In this document: piece by piece, positions 458 to 5,304 of the stretch | Layout: the number at the start of each line of letters is the position of its first letter | Numbering within the stretch: the stretch's first letter is position 1 | Assembly: GCA_026417995.1 (NCBI GenBank) | Contig: JAOACF010000010.1 | Location: 1-35,947, forward strand | DNA: 35,947 bases | Reading direction: 5' to 3' | DNA from: Negativicutes bacterium | GTDB taxonomy: Bacteria > Bacillota > Negativicutes > Sporomusales > JAOACF01 | The notes under the pieces: model-generated | Seen by the model: only the letters and a program-made list of their open reading frames with translations | Told to the model about the DNA's origin: nothing | The model's database searches: none | Made by a program: the position numbers and the translations under genes

Positions 458-2275
458 TTGCCTGAGGTATATGGGGAGATAAGCGGCCTTAGAAAAAGTA
501 TCATAGACAGATTGGAACAATTTTATGCCGCAACCGTTCCATTTGGTCAGATTATCCTGCCCGAACTGGCTAGTGAATTGCTGGCAATCACAGCGCAAAT
601 CAACCGAGAAGTAGCCATTTACCTAAATCGGCGAGGTCAAGTTACTGCTGTAGCGGTTGGCGATGTCAGAACCGTGGCGCTGCCGGAATTGGACGGGCGG
701 AGAGCTGAAAACCGGTTATGTGGGATTCGTTGCATACATACTCATCCGGGAAGCGACAGCGAATTAAGCGGGCCTGATTTGACGGCGCTCACCGTGATGC
801 GCTACGATGTAATGGTTGCTATAAGCGAAAACCAGGGAGTGGCAGAGGCCAGCCTTGGTTTTATTTCGCCAGCAAGCGCCGCCATCTCTGAAGTAAGTAC
901 GATTGGCCCAATTTCCCTGCAAGAACTTGCGCAGATCGATTTTACATATTTATACCTCGAAATTGAAAGACAACTAGGCATCAAAAACAGGTCAGCCATC
1001 ACTGCCGAAAAAGAAAAAGCGCTTCTGGTAGGCGTAGAGAAACACGGGGGCTGGGAAATCACTGCATCGCTTGAGGAATTGGCGCAGTTGGCAGAGACGG
1101 CGGGAGCGGAAGTATTGGGAGTTATCTCGCAAAAAAAGGAACGCCCTGACCCGGCTTTGTTTATCGGCCGAGGAAAACTTGAAGAGGTGCGTCTGCTCCG
1201 GCAGCAGTATGGGGCCAATCTCGTTATATTTGATGACGAATTGTCGCCTGCCCAGCAACGCAATCTGGAACAGGCTTTAAACGTAAAAATCATTGACCGG
1301 ACGGCTCTTATCCTGGATATTTTTGCACAGCGCGCCCGGTCACACGAAGGGAAGCTCCAGGTAGAGCTGGCGCAACTCAAGTACAATCTGCCCCGTCTGG
1401 GGGGGCAAGGCCTGGTGTTATCCCGTCTGGGTGGCGGCATTGGCACGCGCGGCCCCGGCGAAACCAAACTAGAAGTCGACCGTCGACGCATACGCGGGCG
1501 CATCAGTGAAATTGAAAAAGAAATTGATAATATCAGAAAACACCGGGGTTTGCATCGCGAACGACGTCAGCAGGCTAAAATCCCCACCATTGCGTTAGTT
1601 GGCTATACCAACGCAGGAAAATCCACATTACTCAACAAATTGACTAATGCCGGCGTCTTGGCCGAAGATAAACTATTCGCTACGCTTGACCCGACTACCC
1701 GGCGAATTACCCTCCCTAGCGGCAAAGAAACGCTACTGACCGACACCGTCGGCTTTATTCAGAAGCTGCCGCATCAGCTTATCGCCGCTTTTCGGGCAAC
1801 ATTTGAAGAGGTAGTTCAAGCCGACTTGCTGCTGCATGTACAGGATATCAGCCATCCCCTGTTTGAAGAGCAATGCGGAGCCGTTTTTGAGGTGCTGCGT
1901 GAATTCAAAGCAGATACTAAACCGTTAATCAATGTGTACAACAAACTTGATAAAATTGGCGACCCGTATCTGTTGCAGCGGCTCTTACGCCAGCCTTGCA
2001 GCGTGGCCATATCAGCACTGACCGGCGAAGGTATAGACCGCCTGTTCACTATGCTTGACGCCTTTGTATCCGTTCACCTTATCGATATGGATTTGCTACT
2101 GCCGTACAGCGAAAGCGGCTTATTGTCACGCCTTTATGACGGCGGCACCGTACACAGCGTAGAATACCGCGACGGCGGTATCGCCGTAAAGGCCTCTTTA
2201 CCGCAGGATTTAGCCAACCGATTGAAAAATTTCATACAAGGAGATGTTACAACAAATGATCCAATTTCCGGCTAA
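458..2275 (+). CDS. hflX: ribosome-associated GTPase HflX with a ~190-aa N-terminal extension carrying a JAMM-like motif
   Basis: G1 GYTNAGKST, G3 DTVG, G4 NKLD; HflX N-domain from about 'LLVGVEKHGG'; TTG start after AAGGAGAG; extension contains HTHPGSDSELSGPD. Confidence 0.95.
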   Translation: MPEVYGEISGLRKSIIDRLEQFYAATVPFGQIILPELASELLAITAQINREVAIYLNRRGQVTAVAVGDVRTVALPELDGRRAENRLCGIRCIHTHPGSDSELSGPDLTALTVMRYDVMVAISENQGVAEASLGFISPASAAISEVSTIGPISLQELAQIDFTYLYLEIERQLGIKNRSAITAEKEKALLVGVEKHGGWEITASLEELAQLAETAGAEVLGVISQKKERPDPALFIGRGKLEEVRLLRQQYGANLVIFDDELSPAQQRNLEQALNVKIIDRTALILDIFAQRARSHEGKLQVELAQLKYNLPRLGGQGLVLSRLGGGIGTRGPGETKLEVDRRRIRGRISEIEKEIDNIRKHRGLHRERRQQAKIPTIALVGYTNAGKSTLLNKLTNAGVLAEDKLFATLDPTTRRITLPSGKETLLTDTVGFIQKLPHQLIAAFRATFEEVVQADLLLHVQDISHPLFEEQCGAVFEVLREFKADTKPLINVYNKLDKIGDPYLLQRLLRQPCSVAISALTGEGIDRLFTMLDAFVSVHLIDMDLLLPYSESGLLSRLYDGGTVHSVEYRDGGIAVKASLPQDLANRLKNFIQGDVTTNDPISG

Positions 2276-3500
2276 ATTAGAGGCGCTGCGTACAGAAGCT
2301 CTCCGGAAAGCTCAGCCCCTTTTTCACGCTATTGATGAATCCGCCATGCAAAATACGCATAAAGTATTGAATTCCTTTGCCCGGCACCAAGTATCTGATT
2401 TTCATTTCCACCATACTACAGGCTATGGTTATGGTGATGCTGGCCGGGATAAACTCGACGAAATATGGGCGGATATTTTCGGCTGTGAGAAAGCGCTGGT
2501 ACGGAGCCAGTTTGTTTCCGGCACGCATGCTCTGGCAGCCGTACTGTTCGGCATTCTTCGCCCGGGGGACGAATTGCTGTCCGTTACCGGAGCTCCCTAC
2601 GACACGATGCAGACAGTGATTGGCTGCACCGCTAAACCGGCGCCCGGCTCACTTGCCGATTTCGGCGTAGCTTACGCCGAAGTTCCAATGAATGAGGGGG
2701 GCATTGATAGCGAAGCAATAGCGTCGGCAATCAATGAACGCACAAAAATGGTTTTAATCCAGCGTTCACGTGGCTACAGCATGCGTAAACCGCTGACTGT
2801 AGCCGAAATAGGTGCAGCTTGCGCCGCAATTAAAGCACTCAAGCCAGATTGCATTTGCTTTGTCGACAATTGCTACGGCGAATTTGTCGAACAATATGAA
2901 CCAACTGCGGTTGGCGCCGACATTATTGCCGGCTCACTCATTAAAAATCCCGGCGGCGGTATAGCGCCAACAGGAGGGTATATCGCCGGACGATCCGATC
3001 TCGTGGAACTGGCTGCCGCCCGTCTTACTGCGCCGGGTATCGGCTCTGAATTGGGCGCTTCTCTGGCGGATAACCGGCTTTTGTTTCAGGGCCTCTTTCT
3101 GGCGCCGCACACGGTAGCTCAGGCACTTAAAGGAGCAGTATTTGCTTCTATCTTTTTCTCTCTGCTTGGCTATAAAACCCTGCCGCATCCTGAAGAGCCG
3201 CGCAGCGATATTATCCAAGCAATTGAGCTGGGTACACCCAAAAAAATGATCGCCTTTTGCCGCGGCCTGCAAAGGCTATCACCCGTTGAATCCCATGTCC
3301 GACCTGAACCCAGTCAAATTCCCGGGTATGCTGATGCCGTCATCATGGCTGGCGGAACATTCGTCCAAGGCTCGTCAATAGAACTAAGTGCCGATGGCCC
3401 GCTGCGGCCGCCATATGCGGTATACTTGCAAGGAGGCTTAACTTTTGAGCACGCGCTTCTCGGGATTATGGGCGCTGCTGCGGAGCTTTGCCCGGATTAG
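2256..3500 (+). CDS. methionine gamma-lyase family / YnbB-type PLP-dependent protein
   Basis: family-like sequence (HHTTGYGYGDAGRDKLDEIWADIFG...), PLP Lys region GSLIKNPGGGIAPTGGYIAG; immediately downstream of hflX as in Bacillus ynbB; SD AAGGAG before ATG 2256. Confidence 0.88.
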   Translation: MIQFPAKLEALRTEALRKAQPLFHAIDESAMQNTHKVLNSFARHQVSDFHFHHTTGYGYGDAGRDKLDEIWADIFGCEKALVRSQFVSGTHALAAVLFGILRPGDELLSVTGAPYDTMQTVIGCTAKPAPGSLADFGVAYAEVPMNEGGIDSEAIASAINERTKMVLIQRSRGYSMRKPLTVAEIGAACAAIKALKPDCICFVDNCYGEFVEQYEPTAVGADIIAGSLIKNPGGGIAPTGGYIAGRSDLVELAAARLTAPGIGSELGASLADNRLLFQGLFLAPHTVAQALKGAVFASIFFSLLGYKTLPHPEEPRSDIIQAIELGTPKKMIAFCRGLQRLSPVESHVRPEPSQIPGYADAVIMAGGTFVQGSSIELSADGPLRPPYAVYLQGGLTFEHALLGIMGAAAELCPD

Positions 3501-3615
3501 GCTGGAAAAATCTAATAAAAATATTCCTAAAACAATATATTTCCATAATTTTAGACAGGAAAAGTGTTCATTTTGTCGAATAAAATCGGAGATTATAATA
3601 TTTTACGGTGATATT

Positions 3616-4506
3616 GTGGAATACATAGGGTTAACCATTGGTGCCATGGCCGTTACCATCTTACTTGTCTATAAATTGGCCAACAGCGTTTTTCGCCTCG
3701 GCCTCAAGCTGAAACCTCTCATTCTGTGTGCAATCTGCGCTCTTTTTCTAAGTATAATCCTGCCGCGCATTGTTGTCGGGTTTGCCGGTCTGGCGGGTAC
3801 AATCGGTTTTTTAGCAGTCGTTGCCATAATCTTTGCCTATTTTGTCGCGTACTACGAGGGAGAGCAAGAGCCTCAGATATCCAATTCGGCCGCCGCATTG
3901 ATAGAACAGCCATTGCAGGATGCTAGTAAATCAGAGCCCGGGCACGTATTGCCTGCCACGTCCCTTCACCGAGCGGTTGACCGCCAGTCAGCTGTTACGG
4001 AAGAAGTGTCGTCGACAATTGTTGCGGTTGTGCCGCATGTATCAGATTCAAAAGCAGGCTTTACTGAATCTGGTGATTTAGTTGTTTCCGATGAACCAAA
4101 AGAAGAAGTTTTTTTGCCTGCTGATCTCGATGACCTGCTTGACCTAGCTTTTGCAGCTAAGGAGCGAGCCGAACCATCAGCGGCCTTAATCTATTTCCGT
4201 GAGGCACTGAAACGCCATCCGGAAAGCGAAGCTGCTCCATACATAGTCGTTGAAATCGCCACATTGCTCAAAGACAAAGGTTCATATGACGAGGCTATCC
4301 GTGTATTTATCGAGGGGCGCAACCTTCCTAAGGTTCAGGCGGATGGCGTCTTATCGCAGGAATTTACGGAAACAATCGCCTATTTGCGAATAACCCGCAA
4401 CGCCCTGCTTCAACGCCGCTTGGGCTTTGTCCCATTTCATAAAATTCCCGCTGATGTCACGAAAGACATTGACGAAGAATTTCGTGAATGGCGCAATCTT
4501 GCTTAG
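3616..4506 (+). CDS. membrane-anchored protein with C-terminal TPR-like repeats
   Basis: N-terminal TM helices, C-terminal 'LDLAFAAKERAEPSAALIYFREALKRHPESEAAPYIVVEIATLLKDKGSYDEAIRVF'; GTG start chosen at 3616 rather than ORF start 3445. Confidence 0.7.
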   Translation: MEYIGLTIGAMAVTILLVYKLANSVFRLGLKLKPLILCAICALFLSIILPRIVVGFAGLAGTIGFLAVVAIIFAYFVAYYEGEQEPQISNSAAALIEQPLQDASKSEPGHVLPATSLHRAVDRQSAVTEEVSSTIVAVVPHVSDSKAGFTESGDLVVSDEPKEEVFLPADLDDLLDLAFAAKERAEPSAALIYFREALKRHPESEAAPYIVVEIATLLKDKGSYDEAIRVFIEGRNLPKVQADGVLSQEFTETIAYLRITRNALLQRRLGFVPFHKIPADVTKDIDEEFREWRNLA

Positions 4507-4533: not shown

Positions 4534-5304
4534 GTGAAAAAAAGTGCAGACATACTTGGCCTGCCGGTCATCAGCATCACTGAAGGAAAGGAACTGGGAA
4601 AAGTAAAAAATCTTGTAGTCAATCCGGCTGCCGGTTCAGTTGCAGCTCTGGCAATTGACGACGGCAAATGGTATTTAGGTGCAAAGCTTCTGCCCTTTAG
4701 CGCAATTATTGGCTTAGGCGAATATGCAGTGACAATTGAAAGCTCAAGCAACGTCTCTTTATATAGTGAAAACCCGGAGCTTGAAAAACTGCTTACTGCT
4801 GAAGTCGGGGTAATCGGCAGTAAAGTACTCACAAAATCAGGCCGTATATTAGGTAAAGTAAATGAATTCATTGTCGATCTTTCCGGTAAGATTACTGCCT
4901 GCGAAGTGGAAGATGCGAACGGCGAAGTATCCCACCTGCCGTCGGGACGCGTACTTACCTTCGGTAAAGAAGTGTTAATTGTGGGCGAAACAGATGAACC
5001 GCTGGTCGCCGCAACATCGGCACCAAAAGTAGATTTCACTCCCGTTACGCCTGTACCAGCGCCTGCGGTGACTGCTTCCGCTGAGCCTACGCCTGTGACC
5101 GAACCAGCCCCTGCCGCTGATGATTCTGCGAAAAAATTCGATGACAAACATCGCAAGTTTCTATTAGGAAAAAAAGCCTCTCGTCGCATCGAAACAGATA
5201 ATGGTATGATCATAGTTGAACAGGGGGGCGAAATAACCGAAGAGGTTATTCAAAAAGCCAAGCTAGCCGGTAAATTTGTCGAACTATCTATGAGTATTTC
5301 CTAA
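4534..5304 (+). CDS. PRC-barrel domain protein
   Basis: two PRC-barrel-like repeats (DILGLPVISITEGKELGKVKNLVVNP; GSKVLTKSGRILGKVNEFIVDLSGKI); AGGAGG SD. Confidence 0.85.
   Translation: MKKSADILGLPVISITEGKELGKVKNLVVNPAAGSVAALAIDDGKWYLGAKLLPFSAIIGLGEYAVTIESSSNVSLYSENPELEKLLTAEVGVIGSKVLTKSGRILGKVNEFIVDLSGKITACEVEDANGEVSHLPSGRVLTFGKEVLIVGETDEPLVAATSAPKVDFTPVTPVPAPAVTASAEPTPVTEPAPAADDSAKKFDDKHRKFLLGKKASRRIETDNGMIIVEQGGEITEEVIQKAKLAGKFVELSMSIS

Follow-up and report, generated by a model that had tools for sequence, protein, structure and literature searches.

An N-terminal domain of predicted JAMM fold, with an intact metalloprotease-type motif, on the ribosome-splitting GTPase HflX of Negativicutes and other Bacillota

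In a Negativicutes bacterium, the GTPase HflX carries in front of its ordinary ribosome-binding part a 186-residue domain with a predicted JAMM fold and all five residues of the JAMM/MPN+ metalloprotease motif, an arrangement shared by most HflX-bearing genomes of the class. The gene lies in the window, here meaning the whole stretch of 35,947 nucleotides analysed (contig JAOACF010000010.1 of assembly GCA_026417995.1). Separately, both JAMM domains and HflX are familiar; HflX is nearly universal, has ties to heat shock, to ribosomes stalled by antibiotics, and to hibernation, and is regarded as a GTPase only. No description of a JAMM-HflX fusion was found in the open-access literature, judged from titles and abstracts, and HflX goes unmentioned in Iyer et al. 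2006. No Pfam or NCBIfam model matches residues 1-186 above its own cut-off; the domain is absent from both collections and its carriers are therefore annotated simply as 'GTPase HflX'.

The hflX gene starts at a TTG codon, which an AGGAGAG box precedes by about 10 nt. Its parts and its downstream neighbour are as follows.

458..2275, + strand: hflX, encoding 605 aa from a TTG start codon; canonical HflX preceded by a JAMM-like domain
458..1015, + strand: JAMM/MPN+-like N-terminal domain, residues 1-186, from AlphaFold2, Foldseek against the PDB, and homologue alignments
1016..2059, + strand: canonical HflX core, TIGR03156 (GTP_HflX), residues 187-534, E 3.5e-147 and 6.7e-148 in two scans
2244..3500, + strand: Met_gamma_lyase-family gene (ynbB-like), downstream of hflX, PF06838 E=4.9e-181

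Residues 187-605 are a full, ordinary HflX with all domains present. The equivalog model TIGR03156 scores 489.9 bits against a cut-off of 216.75, the Pfam domains GTP-bdg_N (from residue 203), GTP-bdg_M, MMR_HSR1, and HflX_C span residues 203-589, and the best structural matches of the full-length AlphaFold2 model are 50S- and 70S-bound HflX, HflXr, and GTPBP6. From this complete domain set, the protein is predicted to split ribosomes with GTP hydrolysis. The preliminary description of the sequence had put about 190 residues ahead of the HflX N-domain, in good agreement with the 186 that precede the TIGR03156 match. The end of hflX and the Met_gamma_lyase-family gene share 32 bases (2244-2275), which suggests translational coupling; the order hflX-ynbB recurs in Anaerospora (locus L083, neighbour identified by eye), and a PRC-barrel domain protein is encoded near hflX at window positions 4534-5304.

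The fold of the N-terminal domain was predicted by AlphaFold2 from 57 natural homologues with a pLDDT of 85.9 and a pTM of 0.83, the order of elements from residue 35 on being a-b-b-b-a-b-b-b-a. The top 50 Foldseek matches in the PDB were JAMM/MPN proteins or JAMM/MPN-containing complexes throughout, including the Jab1/MPN domain of Prp8, CSN5, RadC, BubCD, Cap3, PfJAMM1, AMSH/STAMBP, Sst2, and BRCC36, with the pseudo-JAMM of Prp8 accounting for several of the top matches. Among the viral models of BFVD, JAB/MPN-type phage proteins were prominent, and the top matches that bear a name include minor capsid proteins as well as RadC-like JAB, MPN, and proteasome-subunit-like ones. Single JAMM structures gave TM-scores to the target of 0.3-0.55, the best being 0.55 for P. 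furiosus JAMM1, modest values that are expected because the domain is a divergent member. By both model and matches, the domain has the cytidine-deaminase-like alpha/beta fold of JAMM proteins.

Sequence comparison points less clearly in this direction. The window protein reaches 12.4 bits against Pfam Prok-JAB, below the cut-off of 25, and members of the family scanned singly match Prok-JAB in 46 and RadC in 25 of 55 cases, weakly (best E 5e-4 and 9e-4, respectively). A single-sequence search of the PDB with the domain returned low-value chance matches only, a profile being needed; with a profile of the domain, AMSH-like proteases, Sst2, Prp8, and proteins resembling Rpn11 come up at E 0.02-0.9 over the HTHP...LSxxD segment. 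Across 399 genomes of the phylum, the same profile picks up three bona fide RadC proteins (L200-L202) at E of about 5e-5 to 9e-4, and alignment of profiles by hhalign against RadC gives E=1e-4, pairing HTHPxGxxxLSxxD with HNHPSGDPTPSxxD, while shuffled or reversed controls stay at E of at least 0.013. Other weak matches were discarded: 6ner, a BMC-H protein, matches around H94 but lacks the motif and was taken as chance, L059 and L060 lack HxHP and are not homologues, and neither is L199, by eye a response regulator/HD protein. Taken together, it is almost certain that residues 1-186 form a JAMM fold homologous to the JAMM family.

The motif itself reads E51 in NREVAIYLN, followed by H94-T-H96-P-G-S-D-S-E-L-S104-G-P-D107, which is HxHx7SxxD with an upstream Glu, as the preliminary description had correctly read and located it. 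The published JAMM motif is EXnHS/THX7SXXD, and AfJAMM holds its zinc with H67, H69, and D80, a water being bound by E22 and the oxyanion hole flanked by S77 (PMC300881). The His-His-Ser-Asp spacing of the window protein equals that of AfJAMM, and the distance from Glu to the first His is 43 residues as against 45. The corresponding codons and one nearby loop are listed below, with conservation among 66 long-form HflX proteins from the class and in a wider set of 128 proteins from across Bacillota that includes the lineages lacking the site.

608..610, + strand: Glu51 codon, predicted general acid-base; 66/66 in the class, 124/128 in the wider set
737..745, + strand: His94-Thr95-His96 codons, predicted zinc ligands and bracing Ser/Thr; H94 and H96 66/66 in the class, 118/128 in the wider set
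767..769, + strand: Ser104 codon, predicted oxyanion stabiliser; 66/66 in the class, 124/128 in the wider set
776..778, + strand: Asp107 codon, predicted third zinc ligand; 66/66 in the class, 122/128 in the wider set
662..724, + strand: residues 69-89, the loop leading from strand 2 to strand 3; modelled with lower confidence, pLDDT blocks 63-74

All five positions are thus identical in every one of the 66 class proteins. These were recruited by phmmer similarity to the whole domain, the motif playing no part, and the conservation is therefore not circular. A separate scan of contigs, in which Sporomusa, Pelosinus, and Selenomonas are the named relatives from the class, used a pattern that itself contained HTHP, so His conservation in that scan was set aside as evidence. 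In an alignment of 55 rows, the invariant columns number only 11 out of 187 and take in all five motif residues; for 11 invariant columns placed at random, the probability of including all five is 2.6e-7. Fold and conservation together bear out the earlier proposal that a ribosome-splitting GTPase is here fused with a domain of metalloprotease fold. The loop of residues 69-89, in which V73, L75, P76, R86, L87, and G89 are near-invariant in the alignments, is possibly a substrate-facing insertion. Judged by the motif residues, lineages bearing the full E/H/H/S/D set are likely to possess a zinc-competent hydrolase.

The site has been lost where the domain has not in three small lineages. The f71 proteins (L187-L189, L191) keep the JAMM-fold domain with no His ligands, the f115 proteins (L192-L197) have the His pair replaced by F/R or F/K while retaining Glu and Ser, and L273 likewise keeps the domain with the site lost. 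Comparable loss of the JAMM site is known from the MPN- proteins Prp8 and CSN6, and these HflX lineages appear, from their sequences, to be natural pseudo-enzymes. The suggestion, raised at the outset, that the domain might be a degenerate structural one fits these three lineages and does not hold for the window protein and most homologues.

Retention of the domain without its His ligands also argues for a non-catalytic role, and the domain could be a structural or RNA-contacting module throughout, a wedge or docking platform that aids 70S splitting or anti-association and in which any zinc is structural. A parallel is the Jab1/MPN domain of Prp8, a catalytically dead part of the spliceosome that is also among the top structural matches. 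According to the available part of a 2025 review on mycobacteria, the N-terminal extension of mycobacterial HflX contacts uL16 and H38, reaches H69-H71, and is required for rRNA disordering; that part of the review also places N-terminally extended HflX in Clostridium and Paenibacilli, with no domain identified there (PMC12493154). That extension, however, is only 39-58 aa long by the same account and is not a JAMM domain. Moreover, E51 and S104 are not ligands and would be unneeded by a structural site, yet they are invariant alongside the ligands, and their strong retention outside the site-less lineages argues for catalysis. A purely structural role is for these reasons rather unlikely.

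The association with HflX is consistent across the genomes searched, where the domain was seen only in cis with HflX. Using the whole 187-residue stretch, phmmer finds matches in 108 of the 151 genomes of the class, those in G089 and G097 being neither HflX nor motif-bearing. Full HflX is present in 109 of the 151, and when phmmer, HflX-model, and N-terminal-length results are combined, 105 of these 109 carry the domain on HflX. Four class genomes (G021, G022, G072, G110) have a short HflX without it, and the other genomes without the domain mostly lack HflX altogether. Genome G005 encodes two JAMM-bearing HflX paralogues (L007, L218). In the sample of the phylum, the domain occurs in frame with HflX in 73 of 399 genomes, counted after four non-HflX matches were dropped, and HflX proteins fall into two classes: in one the core is preceded by about 0-75 residues, in the other by about 155-230 that include the JAMM domain, a few rows being truncated or mis-started. 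Carriers outside Negativicutes include Candidatus Formimonas warabiya and Fervidicella metallireducens, and the domain reaches another phylum in Fusobacterium animalis (WP_016339937.1, 30% identity, HTHPGGNPHLSSVD), in whose HflX the five catalytic-type residues are present by eye. The Fervidicella hflX (L150:2255-4064) is in two pieces of 311 and 211 aa and looks frameshifted or split. Three HflX proteins of family f81 (L247, L254, L260, from G198, G350, and G236) are about 740 aa long with a C-terminal extension of about 360 residues, which in L247 and L260 resembles tRNA-dihydrouridine synthase (Dus) by eye, a possible HflX-Dus fusion.

On a tree of the HflX core, the domain label changes a minimum of about 10 times, and at least two of these changes are forced by well supported branches. 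A single clade of all domain-bearing HflX is not rejected (p-AU 0.07), and since the backbone is poorly resolved, one gain followed by losses or several gains fit alike. The short HflX of G110 (L276) is nested among domain-bearing relatives and has lost the domain entirely.

As HflX splits the ribosome by binding via its N-domain, the fused domain would be carried along with it, and the reading we favour, with moderate confidence, is that HflX delivers an active JAMM hydrolase to ribosomes. The N-domain of GTP-bound HflX would dock on stalled, drug-blocked, or idle 70S ribosomes and then split them, bringing the JAMM domain to the interface of the large subunit, probably close to uL16/H38 and H68-H71, the place taken by the shorter extension in mycobacteria. 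There, zinc held by H94, H96, and D107, with E51 as the base and S104 stabilising the intermediate, would hydrolyse a bond, peptide or isopeptide, in some protein located there or close by, be it a nascent chain, a ribosomal-protein tail, a bound factor, or HflX itself. That the substrate lies on or at the ribosome is a step we infer and hold about evenly balanced, leaning slightly against. The domain may in this way link ribosome rescue to proteolysis, as the preliminary description had suggested, and this broad HflX subfamily can tentatively be pictured as a two-headed rescue enzyme, one head splitting stalled ribosomes and a zinc-protease head cutting a protein thereby exposed, whether a ribosomal protein, a nascent chain, or a factor bound there.

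Two other hydrolytic roles have to be weighed against delivery to the ribosome. The domain might cleave HflX, or a small modifier on HflX, and so toggle the GTPase instead of acting on the ribosome, which would agree with its occurrence in cis only and with Cap3-like bacterial JAMM proteins, represented among the fold matches, that deconjugate a partner enzyme. Around the JAMM-hflX loci compared, however, there was no conserved neighbour and no Ub-like partner, E1, E2, or Ub-like operon as a rule, so that self-processing seems improbable. The sole locus with Ub-like genes upstream, L147, has two of ThiS / Mut7-C type at positions 3281-3830, just upstream of JAMM-HflX and adjoining a gene that by eye is aldehyde ferredoxin oxidoreductase-like; this is not the general pattern. 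The domain could also clip the N-terminal extension of bL27 near the peptidyl transferase centre, a region that HflX reaches in established structures. Prp, the cysteine protease known to cleave bL27 in Bacillota, was found in 26 of 26 relatives tested, the window's own genome included; a second clipping enzyme is thus unneeded, and this role is hardly credible.

If the two-headed picture is true, HflX would give these bacteria a JAMM activity tied to the ribosome, a counterpart to that of Rpn11 at the proteasome. With an intact protease-type site on the HflX of most Negativicutes, many other Bacillota, and Fusobacterium, ribosome rescue may be coupled directly to proteolysis, and the substitutions E51Q and H94A are precise handles for testing this coupling, with the natural site-less lineages as controls.

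Among known systems, the domain resembles the JAMM/MPN+ metalloproteases (MEROPS M67-type) AfJAMM, PfJAMM1, AMSH/Sst2, CSN5, and Rpn11 in its exact EXnH(S/T)HX7SXXD motif, AfJAMM-like spacing, and predicted fold, but differs in being remote in sequence, fused to a ribosomal GTPase, and, in these bacteria, without a Ub-like substrate that is known. RadC (PF04002) is the closest bacterial sequence relative detected and has the HxHP...SxxD core in common with it. In contrast to the HNHPSGDPxPSxxD of RadC, the window domain has HTHPxGxxxLSxxD, and both the RadC signature and the RadC N-terminal region are absent from the window protein (HTHPGSDSELSGPD, in an HflX context); the domain is therefore RadC-like and not RadC, of which the same genome encodes a separate copy. 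Residues 187-605 are equivalent to HflX, HflXr, and GTPBP6, whereas the HflX proteins characterised so far have no such 186-residue domain. The mycobacterial extension, as described in the review (PMC12493154), occupies the same position in the chain and indicates where the extension may sit on the 50S subunit, though it has no JAMM motif. The Jab1/MPN domain of Prp8, finally, shows a JAMM fold within a large RNP-associated protein and is a parallel for the site-less HflX lineages; it is eukaryotic, catalytically dead, and regulates the Brr2 helicase, whereas the window domain retains all five residues.
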